31,601 bases of DNA from a virus, in IMG/VR virus record IMGVR_UViG_3300005921_000011, positions 1 to 31,601 of that record; one strand, written 5' to 3'. The translations under genes and the position numbers were made by a program. Each line of letters starts with the position of its first letter. Positions within the stretch are counted from its first letter, which is position 1. The notes under the pieces are model-generated. The model had not been told where the DNA came from. It saw only the letters and a list, made by a program, of their open reading frames with translations, and did not search any database. This document shows, in pieces, positions 3,709 through 19,385 of the stretch.

Positions 3709-4494
3709 TTGGGGAACATCCTCGGCACATCGTTCGCTAACAGTGGGTTCTCCTACGACGCGAACATCAGTCCGAACAACCAGTCCTTCAGCGGGGCTGT
3801 TCTAGCCACTATTCTTCGGCAGACTGCAATCAACATCGGCGGCATCATCGCCGGCACGGGCAGCTTCGCCAATATCACCATCGGCACGGCGACGATCTCA
3901 TCTGAGTTCGTCGGCACTGCCACGATCACGTCTTTGTCGGTCCCCGGCACGGCGACGATCAATCAGTTGCAGGGCGGCACAGCAACATTCGCTGACGTGG
4001 ATGTCACCGCGCTGTTGACTGTCTCGGGTACGGCGACGATCACCCAGCTGACGGTGGCCGGCACGGCGACGTTCCAAGGCGTTGTGGCCTTCGGTCCCAC
4101 CGCGAACGGCTTGGTGTCGATGCAGCCCGACACCGGGACGTTCACGGGCACGTTCGGCGGTTTGACGACTACAGTCACGGGCGTGGCGTATTGGTCTCGC
4201 AACGGCAACCAAGTATCACTGCTTATTCCCTATGGGACCGGCAGCAAAGCCGCAGCCGGCATTTTCAGCTTCGCGCCGATCCCTGCCGAGATTCAACCCG
4301 TCAAAGCGCAATATCGAAACCTTGTGAACGTCATAAGCGGAGGCACCTTTGTCGTTGGAGGAGGCCAAGTTGGGTTGACAAATAACGCCACTGCTACCTT
4401 GTTCCAAGGTGCCGGCGGCAACGGCTTCGCGGGTGCGTCTGCCATAGGATATGCGGCCACTTTCGAATGCGTCACGTACGCAATAGGACCGTGA
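3709..4494 (+). CDS. Tail fibre/spike-like protein with GTATI repeats
   Basis: 261 residues with a TTG start at 3709, supported by GGGAGG 6 bases upstream; no ATG gives a better start. Residues 1-50 form an attachment part with a hydrophobic ILRQTAINIGGIIAG segment. Residues 59-125 contain six copies of a GTATI/GTATF unit, mostly every 10-11 residues with one longer spacing, typical of a trimeric beta-solenoid stalk. The C-terminal 130 residues (TGTFTGTFGGLTTTVTGVAYW...) resemble the beta-sandwich tip domain that ends many phage fibres. It overlaps terS by one base (TGATG). Probably a receptor-binding or accessory tail protein. Confidence 0.62.
   Translation: MGNILGTSFANSGFSYDANISPNNQSFSGAVLATILRQTAINIGGIIAGTGSFANITIGTATISSEFVGTATITSLSVPGTATINQLQGGTATFADVDVTALLTVSGTATITQLTVAGTATFQGVVAFGPTANGLVSMQPDTGTFTGTFGGLTTTVTGVAYWSRNGNQVSLLIPYGTGSKAAAGIFSFAPIPAEIQPVKAQYRNLVNVISGGTFVVGGGQVGLTNNATATLFQGAGGNGFAGASAIGYAATFECVTYAIGP
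3883..4083 (+). repeat. In-frame GTATI repeat array
   Basis: Near-identical DNA units such as GGCACGGCGACGATC encode six GTAT(I/F) blocks spaced about 10, 11, 10, 17 and 11 residues apart inside the fibre gene. The spacing fits turns of a beta-solenoid. Codon-level similarity between units suggests fairly recent tandem duplication. Confidence 0.6.
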
Positions 4495-5225
4495 TGAGCG
4501 AACTCCCCCTCCTTCCGCGCACGCCCGATCCCGTCCACAAGCCAGGGATGCCCAAGACCCTCACCCGGTGGGACTTCTTCCTCGGGGACCTCGCGGCGGG
4601 CACCCCGGTCGACGAGGCGCGCCAGAAGCACCTCCTTACCCGCGCGGACATCGAGACCATCATTCGCGCCGATCCGCTCCAGATGCAGCGGTGGGACGAC
4701 GCCCGGGCGGCGGCCGAGCGCAGTTCCTGGTCAATCTTCCAGATCGAGGAGATCTTCGCCCGCGTGGCGCAGGGCGTAACGGTCAAAAAGGCCGTGATAG
4801 ATGTCATCGGGAATGCGGGCGGCGATTTCTATGCACTCATCGCTCGCGACCCTGACCTGATGCGCCGCTACAAGCAGGCGCAAGAGATCGCGATGCTGCG
4901 GCTGCATGAGGAGATCATCGAGCTCGCCGATGATGACTCGCAAGATACGCTTGACACGGGCGGCAAGAGTGGTACGGTACCTAATAACGCCGCGGTCGCC
5001 AGGAGTAAGCTTCAGGTCGACGCGCGCTTCCGTAAGGCGGGGCAGCTGAACGGAAAGCTCTTTGGCGAGGCGAAGCAGCAGGTGAATGTGCAGGTCAATT
5101 TGAATCATGCCGAAAGGTTGGAAGAGTGCCGAGAGCGGGCCCGGACCCGCGCTCCTTCGGCAAAGCGCCAAGCAATCGACGTGCCCTTTTCCGAAAAAAC
5201 GGATACACAGGAGACACCGACGTGA
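4494..5225 (+). CDS. terS: Terminase small subunit (TerS), Sf6-like
   Basis: 243 residues from ATG 4494, which overlaps the preceding TGA and has AGGA upstream. The small terminase recognises viral DNA and feeds it to TerL. Two similar units are visible: residues about 32-74 (LAAGTPVDEA ... RADPLQMQRWDDA) and 90-132 (VAQGVTVKKA ... ARDPDLMRRYKQA). Both share a G-x-x-V...A pattern and a DP-x-x-M-x-R...A end, like helix-turn-helix modules. The following segment with VDARFRKAGQLNGKLFG matches the oligomerisation part of Sf6-type TerS. The C-terminus is basic and disordered. The order terS - JAMM-like - small gene - terL supports the call. The stop overlaps the next gene's GTG. Confidence 0.78.
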   Translation: MSELPLLPRTPDPVHKPGMPKTLTRWDFFLGDLAAGTPVDEARQKHLLTRADIETIIRADPLQMQRWDDARAAAERSSWSIFQIEEIFARVAQGVTVKKAVIDVIGNAGGDFYALIARDPDLMRRYKQAQEIAMLRLHEEIIELADDDSQDTLDTGGKSGTVPNNAAVARSKLQVDARFRKAGQLNGKLFGEAKQQVNVQVNLNHAERLEECRERARTRAPSAKRQAIDVPFSEKTDTQETPT

Positions 5226-5842
5226 AGAAGTTCCTTGCTTGGTTCCTGACTTCGATCATTGGCGGCGTGGCGGCGGGCTCAATCGCGGTAGTCGCGACGG
5301 TGCCGAGCGCACACCCGCCGAAGCAGATTTCGATCTCGATTGGGGGCGCCCCGGAGACGGACAATTTTGCCGCGCTCCCGCGCTACGATTCGCTGCACGA
5401 GGCCGCAGTTGCCGCCGCAGTACAGCTCTACGCCTGCTCGCACTACTACGAGTGCAGCACCGTGATCGCGAAGGACAAGGCAGGCAAGTTCCTCATCCGT
5501 CCGTTCCTGCTCTCGAACTTCGCTGGCGACAACACTGAGATGTCCCACGGCGTGCCCGCCGGTTTCGAGCTGGCCGCGGACGAGCATTCGCATCCGTGCC
5601 TGCCGGACAGCCACGAAGTGAGCTTCTTCTCGCCGCAGGATGTCATGGAGAACACCTCCACGAAGACGATCGGGTACATGCTGGACCAGTGCACAGGCGA
5701 AGTGCACGAGTTCATCCCCGGCGTCACCTCGCCGAACGAGACGGAGATGCCCGGCAACCCCGGCGTGTTCTCCACGCACGGCAAAATCGTCGGGAAGATC
5801 CCGGTGGACGGTAAGAGCGTCGAGCCCCACACCGGGGCATAA
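5222..5842 (+). CDS. Exported JAMM-like (DUF4329-type) putative metallopeptidase
   Basis: 206 residues from GTG 5222: AGGAG lies 8 bases upstream and the GTG overlaps the terS stop (GTGA). Residues 1-30 form a signal peptide or membrane anchor (two Lys, then an apolar Ala/Gly/Val stretch ending near PSAHPP). The soluble part shows a JAMM-type set in order: E77 in YYECSTVIAKD, H122 and H124 in EHSHP, and S137/D140 in FFSPQD. The pattern and the later GYMLDQCTGEV strand resemble DUF4329 domains. Cysteines at 72, 78, 126 and 157 fit disulfides outside the cytoplasm. JAMM enzymes use zinc to cleave isopeptide or peptide bonds; the substrate is unknown. A wall- or host-directed role is possible. 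The family call is by eye, and the spacing between the second His and the Ser is longer than classic JAMM. Confidence 0.6.
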   Translation: MKKFLAWFLTSIIGGVAAGSIAVVATVPSAHPPKQISISIGGAPETDNFAALPRYDSLHEAAVAAAVQLYACSHYYECSTVIAKDKAGKFLIRPFLLSNFAGDNTEMSHGVPAGFELAADEHSHPCLPDSHEVSFFSPQDVMENTSTKTIGYMLDQCTGEVHEFIPGVTSPNETEMPGNPGVFSTHGKIVGKIPVDGKSVEPHTGA

Positions 5843-5851
5843 GGAGCAATC

Positions 5852-6127
5852 ATGCATTATGCGAACGGCAGGCCGGCCAAAAACGGCGACAAGGTATTCC
5901 AGATCACATATCACTCGGCGGTTATCGGCGTGCTGTATGACGCTGTACCGGGCAGCGATTACTGTAATGGACAGCTCGCTCCTCTCGGCGGCGGCGCGCA
6001 CATCGGCGCGTGCTTGGCAGATTGTGTGCATCTCGACGACGTATTCGCCGTGCTCGCGTTGGACTTAAGCGCGACTGCGACGCAGGATGTGCGCCAGACA
6101 TTGAGCAAGATGCCGCAGGCCAAGTAA
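5852..6127 (+). CDS. Conserved-looking small phage protein, unknown function
   Basis: 91 residues; AGGAG lies 6-7 bases before ATG 5852. It opens MHYANGRPAKNGDKVF, a pattern seen in small phage proteins that fold as a small beta-barrel, then IGVLYDAVPGSDYCNGQLAP and three Cys (YCNG, GACLADC). No signal peptide or membrane segment. The C-terminal part (about 65-91) looks helical. It ends in a TAATG overlap with the favoured terL start. No function can be assigned. Confidence 0.55.
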   Translation: MHYANGRPAKNGDKVFQITYHSAVIGVLYDAVPGSDYCNGQLAPLGGGAHIGACLADCVHLDDVFAVLALDLSATATQDVRQTLSKMPQAK

Positions 6128-7614
6128 TGCTGCAGCACGGGGACACCAGCAGGGCGCGTGCAGCCCGGCAACCGATGACGGATGCCGAGTTTGAGAGCGC
6201 CATGATTGACGACATGGGTCGTTTCTACGATGATCCCGTGGGCTATGTCTATTACGCGTTCAATTGGGGCGTTGGTGAGTTATCGGAGTCTGATGGACCT
6301 GATACGTGGCAGCTCGCGTTCCTCGAGAGCATCGCCGCGAAGCTCAAAGCCGACCCCGATGCGAACATCCGCGAAGCAACCGCAAGTGGGCACGGAATTG
6401 GAAAAACAACTGTCACGGCTTGGCTTATTCTGTGGTGCATGTCGACGCGCCCTCACCTTTCGGGCGTCATCACGGCAAATACCATGTCCCAGCTGTCCAC
6501 CAAGACGTGGCGAGAGCTCGCCCTTTGGTACAAGCGGGCGGCCAACAAGCACTGGTTCAAGTGGTCCGCGACCAAGTTCTGGCACGTCAAGGACCCTGAG
6601 ACTTGGTTCGTCTCGGCCGAACCTAACACCGAGCACAACTCCGAAGCCTTCGCCGGACGACACGCCAAGTACAAGATCATAATCTTCGATGAGGCCTCCG
6701 CCATCCCCGACAAGATCTGGGAAGTGACGGAAGGCGCGATGACCGACCCCCGCTCGATCTGGTGCGTGTTCGGCAACCCGACGAAGAACACCGGCCGGTT
6801 CAAGGACTGCTTCGGGCACGACAGCGCCCGCTGGGGCCGCCGGCACGTTGACTCCCGTACCTGCAAGATGACAAACAAGGTGGAACTCGATGAGTGGATC
6901 AAAGCCTATGGAATTGACTCAGACTTTGTTCGGGTCCGCATCCTCGGACTCTTTCCCCGTTTCGGGGCGATGCAGTTTATCTCTACCGAATCTGTGGATC
7001 GGGCCATGCTCGCCGACATGCCCTATGAAGCGTGGTGCATGCTGCCCGTCGTGTTTGGCGTGGATGTTGCCCGGTATGGTGACGATAAGTCCTGCATCGC
7101 TATCCGCCAAGGACGTAAGCTTCACGAGATGAGGAAGTTCCGCGAGGTCTCGACCATGCAACTCGCCGCGGAAGTCGTCGCGGCGATGAAGGACTACGGC
7201 AAGGTCGCGGCCGTCTTCGTGGACGGAGTCGGAGTCGGAGCCGGCGTGGTCGATCGCCTGCAGATGCTCGGGCACCCCGTCATCGAGGTGAACGGCGGCG
7301 AGACTGCCTTCGAGGAGGTCACGTACTACAACAAGACCGCCGAGATGTGGGCCCGCATGCGCGAATGGCTCAAGGGCGCCAAGCTCCCCGAGAAGGACAG
7401 TGAGCTGCGTCTCGCTTTGATCGGGCGAGAGTACTACTTCGACGACAAAGAACGTATAAGGCTTGAGCGGAAGAAGGATATGAAAAAGCGCGGCTTGGCG
7501 TCGCCTGATGAGGCTGACGCGCTGTGCCATACCTTCGCCGAGGAGCTGGGCGACCTGATTCGCAACAGCTTTGAGCCCGATGACGAATCCTTCGAACCGG
7601 AGACTCCCACGTGA
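6127..7614 (+). CDS. terL: Terminase large subunit (TerL)
   Basis: 495 residues if started at ATG 6127 (TAATG overlap); ATG 6175 (MTDAEFES) is an alternative, and both SDs are weak. TerL is the ATP-driven DNA packaging motor and headful nuclease. ATPase part: Walker A GHGIGKTT at 88-95, Walker B IIIFDEAS with D188/E189, then a coupling segment VFGNPTKNTGRF. Nuclease part: acidic residues D313 and D320 in GVDVARYGDD, D366 in VFVDGVG, and a late acidic site DEADAL (461-466). Length and order fit a complete enzyme. Flanked by packaging genes and followed, with overlap, by a small gene. Confidence 0.95.
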   Translation: MLQHGDTSRARAARQPMTDAEFESAMIDDMGRFYDDPVGYVYYAFNWGVGELSESDGPDTWQLAFLESIAAKLKADPDANIREATASGHGIGKTTVTAWLILWCMSTRPHLSGVITANTMSQLSTKTWRELALWYKRAANKHWFKWSATKFWHVKDPETWFVSAEPNTEHNSEAFAGRHAKYKIIIFDEASAIPDKIWEVTEGAMTDPRSIWCVFGNPTKNTGRFKDCFGHDSARWGRRHVDSRTCKMTNKVELDEWIKAYGIDSDFVRVRILGLFPRFGAMQFISTESVDRAMLADMPYEAWCMLPVVFGVDVARYGDDKSCIAIRQGRKLHEMRKFREVSTMQLAAEVVAAMKDYGKVAAVFVDGVGVGAGVVDRLQMLGHPVIEVNGGETAFEEVTYYNKTAEMWARMREWLKGAKLPEKDSELRLALIGREYYFDDKERIRLERKKDMKKRGLASPDEADALCHTFAEELGDLIRNSFEPDDESFEPETPT

Positions 7615-7832
7615 CGTACAACCTTGTACAGAAAACCCACTATATGATTCCCGCGCCCTCTGCCTATCCCGGCATGTGGGAAGTGTACTCGAGCTTGCCT
7701 AACTGGACCGGCGGACCGCCGGAGTTCAAAGGGCGGTTCCCCACGGCTGATCTCGCGCAAGCGAAGGTGCTCAGCCTGAATAACAGCTCTGCCGCGAATG
7801 CTAGCGGGCAGGGCAAAGACTCGTTCGACTAA
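7611..7832 (+). CDS. Unknown 73-residue protein
   Basis: GTG start at 7611 overlaps the terL stop (GTGA), with GGAG 8 bases upstream. The sequence starts MTYNLVQKTHYMIPAPSAYPG and continues with WEVYSSLPNWTGGPPEFKGRFPTADLAQAKVLS, a compact mixed fold with several Trp/Tyr/Pro. The tail is Asn/Ser/Gly-rich. This type of small protein between terL and portal is common in podoviruses, but no function is known to me. Confidence 0.5.
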   Translation: MTYNLVQKTHYMIPAPSAYPGMWEVYSSLPNWTGGPPEFKGRFPTADLAQAKVLSLNNSSAANASGQGKDSFD

Positions 7833-16053: not shown

Positions 16054-16878
16054 ATGGCCCTGACACCCGTAGCCAACATGACCTTCCTGCAGCTGGTTCA
16101 GCAGCTGTACCGCGAAGTGGGCGCTGCCGGCGGCACGCCGACGACAGCCATCCCCACCACAGCCAATACCACGGGCGAAATCCTGCGCCTCGTGAACTAC
16201 GTGCACGATGCCGAGCTCGACATTCAGAACATGTGGGTCGACTGGAAGTGGCTGCGCCAAACACTGACTTTCTACACCGCGGCGCAGAACCAGACCGGCA
16301 TCTTCACGACTTCCGGCGGCTCGATCAGCGCGTATCCCACAGACCTCGCCGAGTGGGACTGGAAGAGCTTCTTCATCTATCCGGTGAATGCGACTAGCCC
16401 GCAGCCGCTGGCGACCGCTGAGTGGCAGGAAGTGCGCAATCAGGTGTTCAACACCACGAGTTACACCCAGCCGTGGCGCGTCATCGTGATGCCGAACAAC
16501 ACCTTCCGATTCGACAACATCCCCGATCAGAGCTACCAGTGCTTCTGCGAGTACCGTACGGTGCCGTATGACCTGAAGAACGATGCGGATGTGTCAAACA
16601 TCCCGACTCGCTTCGCCAATCGCGTCATCCTCGAGATGGCACGCCTGAAGTACGGCATGTTCGAAAACGCCCCCGAGCAGGTGGCGCAGGCGAAGTTGCA
16701 GCTCTATGGCACGGTGACGGATGACGGCATCCCGACCAACATGGGCCTCCTCGCCGCGCTCGAGAACGATCAGCTGCCGAACCGCAAGAACAGCCGGCGC
16801 CAGCAGGGCAACAACATCGTCGTGTCGACTGACTACGGCGTGGGATACGACAGCCAGAACTGGGACGGGAGCTACTGA
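16054..16878 (+). CDS. Head-tail adaptor, phage SU10 adaptor type
   Basis: 274 residues; GGGAGAG precedes ATG 16054. Adaptor proteins sit under the portal and connect it to the tail nozzle. The N-terminus has the pattern of SU10-type adaptors: FLQLVQQLYREVGAAGG, a Thr-rich link, then TGEILRLVNYVHDAELDIQNMW and WKWLRQ. A beta-rich middle follows, and a helix RFANRVILEMARLKYGMFENA near residue 200 in turn. The C-terminus is flexible (NSRRQQGNNIVVSTDYG). Length is normal for the group, and the stop overlaps the nozzle ATG (TGATG). This points to a short-tailed virion. Confidence 0.78.
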   Translation: MALTPVANMTFLQLVQQLYREVGAAGGTPTTAIPTTANTTGEILRLVNYVHDAELDIQNMWVDWKWLRQTLTFYTAAQNQTGIFTTSGGSISAYPTDLAEWDWKSFFIYPVNATSPQPLATAEWQEVRNQVFNTTSYTQPWRVIVMPNNTFRFDNIPDQSYQCFCEYRTVPYDLKNDADVSNIPTRFANRVILEMARLKYGMFENAPEQVAQAKLQLYGTVTDDGIPTNMGLLAALENDQLPNRKNSRRQQGNNIVVSTDYGVGYDSQNWDGSY

Positions 16879-19385
16879 TGCCCCGCGGTGGCGGCCTCAA
16901 GTCTGTCACCCAGACGAAGTACTATCCCTTTAACGGAGGGCTGGACGTCGTCACGCCCGCGCTTTCTGTGGATCCTGGTTTCTGCCTTGCGATGGTCAAC
17001 TACGAGCCGTACTACAACGGCGGCTACCGGCGCATCGACGGCTACGAGCGCTTCGACGGGCATTCGAAGCCCAGCCTCGGGACTGCATACGGCTTCCAAG
17101 TAAGCTCTCTCTCCGGCATCACCGGCGTGGGCACTCTCACTTCAACCTCGGCCACCAACGTCTACCAGCCGGGGACCGGCGTCACTTCCGGCGCGACCGC
17201 CATCGTGGTTGCCGCGATCACCACCTACACGCAGACGGTGCAGATCACCGGCACGCTGACGACCACCGGTACAGCTACGCAGTATTGGCTGGCGATCACG
17301 CGCGTCGCCGGCACGTTCGCTACTGCCGAGAAGATGTACATCGGCACGACGACGATGACCGCGACGATCGTGACGACGCCGTCAGCCAACTATGGCCCGG
17401 GCGGCACCGGCACGGACGGCTTCCTCTACACCAGCGAGTTCGAGTTCGGCGCGCAGAACTACTACCGCCAGCAGATCCTCGTGGTGCCCGGCACGGGCAA
17501 TATCTTGGGTGTCTGGCAGAACGGCAGCAACGTATACGCAGTCCGCGGAACGAGTACAAACACCGGCACCCCGGCGGTGATGTGGCTCTCCACCAGCACC
17601 AACGGCTGGGGCACGAGCGCACTCACCTACGCGAACACGCTCTACTACGGCACGCTGGCGCTCAACACCGCCATCTTCACCGCGCAGATCAACCAGAACG
17701 GGTACATGATCGTCGGCACGATGACCGCCGGCACGCTCGCGGCCGGCATGACGGTCAGCGACACCACGGGTCTCGTGCCGATCGGCGCTACGATTACGAA
17801 TCAGCTGCCCGGGGGCGTCGCCGGGGGCACGGGCACATACCAGCTCAGCGTCATCCCTTCGATCCCCGTTCCGGTCGAGGGCATGTTCGCCTGCAACGAC
17901 ACCGCGACGCTGCCCATTGCGGGACAGACCGTCACCGGCGTTACCAGCGGAGCGGTGGGCACGGTCGCCTACGTGATCCCGCAGGACACGGCTGTCGGGT
18001 ACATCGCTTTCAGCAAAGTCACAGGAACTTTCTCCAACGCGGAGAGCCTCACGGCCGGCGGTACCGGGTTTGCCAATGCCGTCGGCACGAACGTTCTCTT
18101 CGCGCTTCCCGGCGGGACGCAGGGTTTCTACCGCTGGCAGAATCAGAATTTCTACGCCGGCACCGCGCAGTACAATGCCTACGGTTGCAACGGCGTCGGG
18201 CCGGCATTCCAAATCGACAATGCCCAGCTGATCACGCCGATCCTGATGCCGCTCATTGCGCTGACGAACCAGCCCCCGGCCAACAACCCCTTCCTGCTGT
18301 GCGCCTACCAGGGTTTTCTCTTCCTCGCCTTCCCGGGCGGCATCTATCAGCAGTCGGTGGCGGGTTCGCCGCTGCAATTTGACGGCTTCTTGGGTGCGGA
18401 GGAGTTCAGCGTCGGTGACACGATCACCGGCCTCTTCAGCATGGTCGGCCCGAATCTCATCATCCCGACGAAGCATTCTTCGTGGGCACTCTCGGGGAAT
18501 TCAGATGCAAACTTTGTTCAGTCTCTCGTTGCTGAAAAAGCCGGAGCCATCCTATATTCTGGTCAGCTCCTTGACACTGTATATGCCATCAACAACCTGG
18601 GCATTACCTCCCTCAGTCGTACCCAATCTTACGGCAACTACGTCGGTGCTACCGTCTCTCAGCTGATCCAGCCGATGATCAATGCGCTGCGCCCCAACTT
18701 CAACGACTCGACCATCGTGCGAGAGTTCAACGAGGCGCGCTTCTACTTTAACGACGGTTCGTGCCTCATCATGTACGTGCCGGGGTTGGGTCAGCAGAAC
18801 AAGGCATGGAGTGCGATCGAGAGCGGCGTGACCGCGCAGTTTGGCTACGCGAGCTACCCCTCTCCGATCTTCAACATCTGCAACTCAGAAGACCAGAACA
18901 ACAACGAGGTCGGCTACTTCGGCCTCAGCAACGGAGACGGGTATGTCTACCAAGACAGATCGGGGCAGTCCTTCGACGGCATTGCCATTACTTCCTATAT
19001 ACGACTCGCTTTCAATAACGTGGGATCCCCTGCCGTACGGAAGTACTTCCGCAGGGCGGACCTGGAGCTCAACTCTCCCGCCCAAGTCATGCTCAAATTC
19101 GCCGCTGACCTCACGTACAGCAACGAGGAAAGTGCGAGCTCGCTCCAGTTCCTCACTGCGGCGAATATCCCGGCGGTAGAAGTCTTCGGTGGCGGCGGCT
19201 ACTGGGACAGTGTCAACTGGAATCAGTTCTACTGGGACGGCCAGGCGATCAGCACGGCGCGCGCCCAGCTTGACGGCACGGGCCTGAACATCAGCTTCCT
19301 GATCTTCCACCAGGCCGTGGTCGATCTGCCGTTCGTCCTTCAGGGACTGACACTCTACTATGACCCGCGAAGGAATCAGCGCTAA
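16878..19385 (+). CDS. Tail nozzle-like protein with inserted beta domains
   Basis: 835 residues, starting in a TGATG overlap. The opening KYYPFNGGLDVVTPALSVDP and NYEPYYNGGYRRIDGYERFD matches the start of podovirus nozzle/tail-tubular proteins, which form the channel below the adaptor. The core has propeller-like blades (FLAFPGGIYQQS, LIIPTKHSSWALSG, EFNEARFYFNDG, NNEVGYFGLSNGDGYVYQD). Three extra beta units are inserted: about 97-165, 265-335 (with a GGTGTYQLS end as in many fibre repeats) and 337-412; the first and third share a VTSGA... VxGTF-x-x-AE pattern. No catalytic motif. The stop overlaps the fibre gene (TAATG). Confidence 0.72.
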   Translation: MPRGGGLKSVTQTKYYPFNGGLDVVTPALSVDPGFCLAMVNYEPYYNGGYRRIDGYERFDGHSKPSLGTAYGFQVSSLSGITGVGTLTSTSATNVYQPGTGVTSGATAIVVAAITTYTQTVQITGTLTTTGTATQYWLAITRVAGTFATAEKMYIGTTTMTATIVTTPSANYGPGGTGTDGFLYTSEFEFGAQNYYRQQILVVPGTGNILGVWQNGSNVYAVRGTSTNTGTPAVMWLSTSTNGWGTSALTYANTLYYGTLALNTAIFTAQINQNGYMIVGTMTAGTLAAGMTVSDTTGLVPIGATITNQLPGGVAGGTGTYQLSVIPSIPVPVEGMFACNDTATLPIAGQTVTGVTSGAVGTVAYVIPQDTAVGYIAFSKVTGTFSNAESLTAGGTGFANAVGTNVLFALPGGTQGFYRWQNQNFYAGTAQYNAYGCNGVGPAFQIDNAQLITPILMPLIALTNQPPANNPFLLCAYQGFLFLAFPGGIYQQSVAGSPLQFDGFLGAEEFSVGDTITGLFSMVGPNLIIPTKHSSWALSGNSDANFVQSLVAEKAGAILYSGQLLDTVYAINNLGITSLSRTQSYGNYVGATVSQLIQPMINALRPNFNDSTIVREFNEARFYFNDGSCLIMYVPGLGQQNKAWSAIESGVTAQFGYASYPSPIFNICNSEDQNNNEVGYFGLSNGDGYVYQDRSGQSFDGIAITSYIRLAFNNVGSPAVRKYFRRADLELNSPAQVMLKFAADLTYSNEESASSLQFLTAANIPAVEVFGGGGYWDSVNWNQFYWDGQAISTARAQLDGTGLNISFLIFHQAVVDLPFVLQGLTLYYDPRRNQR

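Follow-up and report, generated by a model that had tools for sequence, protein, structure and literature searches.

A predicted exported JAMM-type hydrolase gene occupies a conserved, translationally coupled and exchangeable slot between terS and terL in a phage clade

The window analysed here is the whole 31,601-nucleotide stretch of IMG/VR record IMGVR_UViG_3300005921_000011, which originates from a soil phage, and the features from terS to terL lie on the plus strand. A gene with a GTG start at 5222–5842 encodes a JAMM/DUF4329-type putative metallo-hydrolase of 206 residues that is predicted to be exported. It is preceded by terS (4494–5225), encoding an Sf6-type small terminase subunit (PF20901, E = 4.7e-15), the start of which is most likely the ATG at 4494 (243 residues), matching the relatives. 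As the original prediction had it, the JAMM gene starts at the terS stop: the GTG at 5222 overlaps the terS stop codon TGA (5223–5225) in a GTGA tetranucleotide (5222–5225). A Shine-Dalgarno sequence, AGGAG (5209–5213), is located inside the 3′ end of terS, eight bases before this GTG. The large terminase subunit gene terL (6127–7614; phrog_5902, E = 2.1e-58; phrog_2, E = 1e-43) begins with an ATG at 6127. The predicted position of the JAMM gene between terS and terL is correct; however, terL is not its immediate neighbour, as a 91-residue ORF (5852–6127), with no family match and present in the window only, intervenes. In most relatives, unlike the window, the JAMM stop codon abuts or overlaps the terL start. 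The gene coordinates and residues named in the original prediction proved exact, i.e., the JAMM glutamate E77 (5450–5452), the putative metal-binding HxH motif H122-S-H124 (5585–5593, with H122 at 5585–5587 and H124 at 5591–5593) followed by P125, the SxxD motif S137-P-Q-D140 (5630–5641, with S137 at 5630–5632 and D140 at 5639–5641) and four cysteines, C72, C78, C126 and C157. On the other side of terL, a 73-residue ORF (7611–7832) occupies the place where several relatives carry an HNH-like ORF; by eye, small HNH-like ORFs directly follow terL at L001:6097–6558, L036:6399–6860 and L037:2194–2574.

Sequence families, the match of the predicted fold and residues invariant in homologues all support assigning the protein to JAMM/DUF4329. 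The window protein matches DUF4329 (PF14220) with 19.5 bits (E = 1e-3) against a curated cut-off of 28.6 bits, which is passed by the homologues L006 (35.5 bits) and L020 (38.1 bits). DUF4329 matches are found in all nine members scanned and Prok-JAB matches in six of the nine, with the Prok-JAB cut-off passed by L003, L037 and L020. An AlphaFold2 model computed on a 12-sequence alignment reached a pLDDT of 79 and a pTM of 0.71, with pLDDT values of 85–96 for most of residues 51–200; an earlier model built from two sequences (pLDDT 44) was discarded. In the comparison with JAMM/MPN folds that had been proposed along with the original prediction, the eight best PDB matches of the model found by Foldseek are all JAMM/MPN proteins, including an archaeal Rpn11 homologue, PfJAMM1, AF2198 and BRCC36; their probabilities reach 1.00, and their E-values are only 3e-3 to 3.5e-2. 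A profile search against PDB sequences aligned the HSHP...SPxD residues with HSHP and SPTD of CsRpn11 (6fjv), a weak match (E = 0.58). The predicted structure thus supports an MPN fold for the window protein and its membership of the JAMM/MPN+ superfamily; this fold and its active site are already known, not new.

Homologues were gathered by TerL- and JAMM-based scans of IMG/VR. The resulting 12-sequence set consists of the window protein, nine distinct orthologues from the slot between terS and terL (eight with an intact terS–JAMM junction and one truncated copy, L037) and two relatives located elsewhere (L020 and L040). Only A61, E77, H122, H124, P125, F136, S137 and D140 are invariant across all 12 sequences, and the full JAMM set E/HxHP/FSxxD is among them. 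Since the homologues are 28–67% identical to the window protein, this conservation goes beyond chance; the E/HxH/SxxD set, which the original prediction expected homologues to retain, is intact in 12 of 12 sequences. A comparison of the JAMM gene with that of its closest homologue, L001, gave a dN of 0.255, a dS of 0.97 and a dN/dS of ~0.26, and the gene is under purifying selection. By tblastn against 50,697 phage records, no match was obtained at E ≤ 1 with the window protein, L020 or L006, nor at E ≤ 5 with L010, and L040 gave only matches at E = 0.5, to a gpK-type protein. A scan of GTDB genomes with the JAMM alignment returned no relative, and no JAMM gene lies within the fetched flanks at any of 80 loci of prophage type that surround related terL genes. 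A search of 11 of those bacterial genomes in their entirety, a weak negative because it was run without a positive control, recovered no JAMM relative, and neither did a DUF4329 search of Vibrio phages with a related terL.

Sought between terS and terL of related phages, the JAMM gene was found with an intact junction in eight relatives (L001, L003, L005, L006, L008, L009, L010 and L036) and as the truncated copy mentioned above. The order terS–JAMM–terL is the same in all eight; the terS/JAMM junction is a 4-bp ATGA overlap in seven of them and an abutting TAA-ATG in L009, and a purine-rich, GGAG-type site precedes the JAMM start in these relatives. The gene had originally been called out of place in a packaging operon, which stands as a description, with the slot conserved and the gene co-translated. 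Some sister phages are without it: in L011, terL directly follows terS, and in L012, L013 and L015 a different small ORF fills the slot. This ORF (L012:4687–4989, the same in L013, and L015:4549–4905) contains cysteines and is zinc-ribbon-like, and its L015 copy bears a very weak likeness to DUF6527 (E = 0.15). The idea that it functionally substitutes for the JAMM gene was given no weight, as this sole family match is far below threshold.

The gene in the slot has a history different from that of its neighbours. Between L005 and L008, TerS is 88% and TerL 95% identical, whereas the JAMM protein is only 39% identical; between L006 and L008, the respective values are 38% for TerS, 81% for TerL and 55% for the JAMM protein. 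DNA identity drops from ~85–90% to ~45% exactly from the end of terS to the start of terL, such that the breakpoints coincide with the gene ends. The TerL tree pairs L005 with L008 (100/99), whereas the JAMM tree pairs L005 with L010 (100/99) and L006 with L008 (100/100), a strongly supported conflict. The identity mismatch, the breakpoints at gene ends and the conflicting trees show that the JAMM gene has been replaced as a cassette, with its position and coupling retained. In a different phage, L040, a JAMM member resides within the replication module. Cassette exchange and this replication-module copy together argue against a role in packaging and would favour a variable, host-facing one. 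It is conceivable that the protein is nonetheless a cytoplasmic packaging or head-maturation factor acting on terminase or capsid, its hydrophobic helix not being a signal, and the strict terS–terL position with translational coupling would fit such a role. We consider this very improbable, given that sister phages sharing this type of terminase (L011, L012, L013 and L015) lack the gene and that it is swapped independently of TerS and TerL, has a copy in a replication module and encodes paired cysteines.

Export, a further element of the original prediction, is supported indirectly by the N-termini and the cysteines, from which we infer the location itself. The window protein begins with MKK and has an 18-residue hydrophobic stretch (residues 8–25, 5243–5296) with a mean hydropathy of 2.02, a candidate signal or anchor; no other stretch of the protein exceeds 0.73, and the model places a low-confidence helix at residues 2–18. 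Every complete slot copy, as well as L040, has a comparable N-terminal stretch (mean hydropathy of 2.0–3.0 over 18 residues) preceded by Lys/Arg. The cysteines vary in pairs: C72 and C78 are both missing in L006 and in L008, C126 and C157 are kept in 11 of the 12 sequences, and the exception, L020, which lacks the N-terminal signal, has none of the four. The paired loss and the absence of cysteines from the signal-less L020 support an extracytoplasmic location, and the co-variation fits disulphides formed outside the cytoplasm. For the window phage, we infer that this location would be a Gram-negative periplasm. The L040 relative (L040:4719–5450), also of JAMM/DUF4329 type, contains a possible lipobox (LLFGC) and lies beside methyltransferase-like and PolA-like genes.

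Accessory genes are not usually coupled so strictly to terS and terL across a clade, and the coupling could point to a function late in infection or in the virion. The protein might be a virion-associated envelope hydrolase, packaged in or attached to the particle and aiding cell-wall penetration, as proposed for lambdoid gpK. The signal-less L020 lies directly after glycine-rich tail genes, the JAMM gene is within a structural operon, and an hhalign comparison with a gpK-type C40 peptidase, extending over 92 columns, spans the JAMM part including HSHP (probability 82, E = 1e-5). Like the window protein, gpK-type proteins thus contain a phage JAMM domain; however, they are two-domain (Prok-JAB plus NlpC/P60), signal-less products of the tail module, whereas the window protein is a single-domain protein with no NlpC/P60 domain, encoded in the terminase operon between terS and terL. 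An N-terminal signal or anchor would also be unexpected in a particle protein assembled in the cytoplasm, and we regard a virion function as unlikely.

The position of the lysis genes in relatives bears on the role as well. In the 64-kb and 61-kb relatives, a lysozyme or SLT-like gene is found downstream of a giant structural gene, ~27–29 kb from the JAMM slot, with small membrane or Rz-like genes nearby in both; the G004 lysozyme gene matches PF00959 (E = 5.3e-16), and the SLT match in G001 is below threshold (E = 0.014). G002, the 31-kb relative, has a comparable ORF at the lysis position, which gave no family match. G001 and G002 carry the JAMM gene and G004 does not, and the window stops short of the region corresponding to these lysis genes. 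Because relatives encode a separate lysozyme or SLT-like gene elsewhere, it is improbable that the JAMM gene encodes the endolysin. Its product might instead contribute to late lysis as an anchored enzyme of the periplasm, cutting the cross-links of peptidoglycan: such cross-links chemically resemble the isopeptide bonds that JAMM deubiquitinases cleave, the predicted periplasmic placement and the co-expression with late genes would suit this role, and terminase-adjacent endolysins exist, e.g., in the TerL relative vir555, where one immediately follows terL. Nevertheless, we think this improbable, as relatives possess a distant lysis region of their own, with an SLT-like or phage-lysozyme gene and, in G001, a small membrane protein, and no JAMM peptidoglycan hydrolase is known.

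Other genes of these relatives are also of note. A gene for a stomatin-like (SPFH/Band 7) membrane protein adjoins the lysis region in two of them (L028:7572–8129 and L031:17566–18123). In G001, the giant structural gene and the SLT-like gene flank a histidine-phosphatase gene (L028:6050–6649; PF00300, E = 8e-25), and G002 has a similar ORF at the corresponding position. Genes resembling sugar-nucleotide/LPS enzymes occur in G001 (L029:2835–3932 and L026:2819–3817) and G004 (L032:13972–15669), with likenesses to GT9 heptosyltransferases, PfkB kinases, cytidylyltransferases, cupins and GT2, suggesting that the surface of a Gram-negative host is modified. In the window itself, an 835-residue structural protein (16878–19385) has a PHROG 'amidase' match over residues 571–830 (phrog_5107, E = 5e-14); a Pfam search with this protein gave no match, and the label may mislead.

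Keeping its slot and an intact active site while its versions are swapped, the protein probably acts on the host envelope rather than in packaging. Our preferred reading, to which we assign a probability of roughly 0.55, is that the gene encodes a periplasmic or membrane-anchored JAMM metallo-hydrolase that acts on the host envelope as an exchangeable accessory factor, not in packaging. The protein would be a late product, translated together with the terminase subunits yet taking no part in packaging. A zinc hydrolase of JAMM fold (DUF4329/Tox-JAB-2-like), it would be exported and then either cleaved or kept anchored in the inner membrane, its domain presumably stabilised by one or two disulphides. 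In the periplasm, the enzyme may cut a peptide or isopeptide bond in a component of the host envelope, and the altered envelope of the infected cell could protect against competing phages, e.g., as a superinfection factor, or help late in infection. A more specific version, which we hold only tentatively, is a periplasmic JAMM isopeptidase, co-produced with the terminase and swapped as a cassette, that cuts peptidoglycan cross-links or a surface receptor. If true, this would make it the first JAMM-fold enzyme to serve as a superinfection or envelope-remodelling factor. Most of what is known about JAMM enzymes concerns proteases of the ubiquitin type that work in the cytoplasm; secreted versions from prokaryotes and phages have been catalogued, and we found none that had been tested. 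The phage clade with the slot gene would therefore offer a small, expressible test object for secreted JAMM function, including that of the JAMM half of lambda gpK.

Several known systems can be set beside the window protein. The membrane proteins and lipoproteins of superinfection exclusion, SieA and Ltp, are exported phage proteins and not enzymes; the window protein resembles them in being variable between relatives, presumably accessory and, as predicted, exported, and differs in retaining a complete set of catalytic residues. With PfJAMM1, CsRpn11 and AF2198 of the JAMM/MPN+ superfamily it shares the fold and the E/HxHP/SxxD motif, whereas those enzymes are cytoplasmic and act on ubiquitin-like proteins, and for the window protein export and disulphide bonds are predicted. 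The closest family is Tox-JAB-2, which overlaps DUF4329 and is defined by E, H[ST]H, S and D (Zhang et al. 2012, PMC3482391), a residue set that the window protein shares; all scanned members match the DUF4329 profile, the window protein itself below the curated cut-off. The original prediction knew of no described role for such a gene in this position; secreted Tox-JAB-2/DUF4329 versions have in fact been noted in Xanthomonas phages, e.g., OP1, and in large DNA viruses (PMC3482391), whereas in the open-access literature we found no description of an exported JAMM gene that is conserved in the terS–terL slot, translationally coupled there and exchanged as a cassette. As far as we found, the conserved, translationally coupled slot and the swappable-cassette behaviour of this predicted exported gene are thus new. 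Zhang et al. 2012 proposed nuclease action or a virulence role for Tox-JAB-2 (PMC3482391), and DUF4329 was later listed as a T6SS/RHS effector domain, an RNase in some papers, with the mechanism left unsolved in the parts consulted. By this kinship, the window protein could be a secreted effector or toxin against nucleic acids or other cells, which we consider quite unlikely: the nuclease idea is itself only a prediction (PMC3482391), and the window protein, unlike the Tox-JAB-2 toxins, is a stand-alone 206-residue ORF with a predicted signal anchor and cysteine pairs, not fused to an RHS or other delivery domain, and encoded in the terS–terL slot with no conserved adjacent immunity gene, the JAMM stop abutting or overlapping terL in most relatives and the 91-residue ORF being specific to the window.
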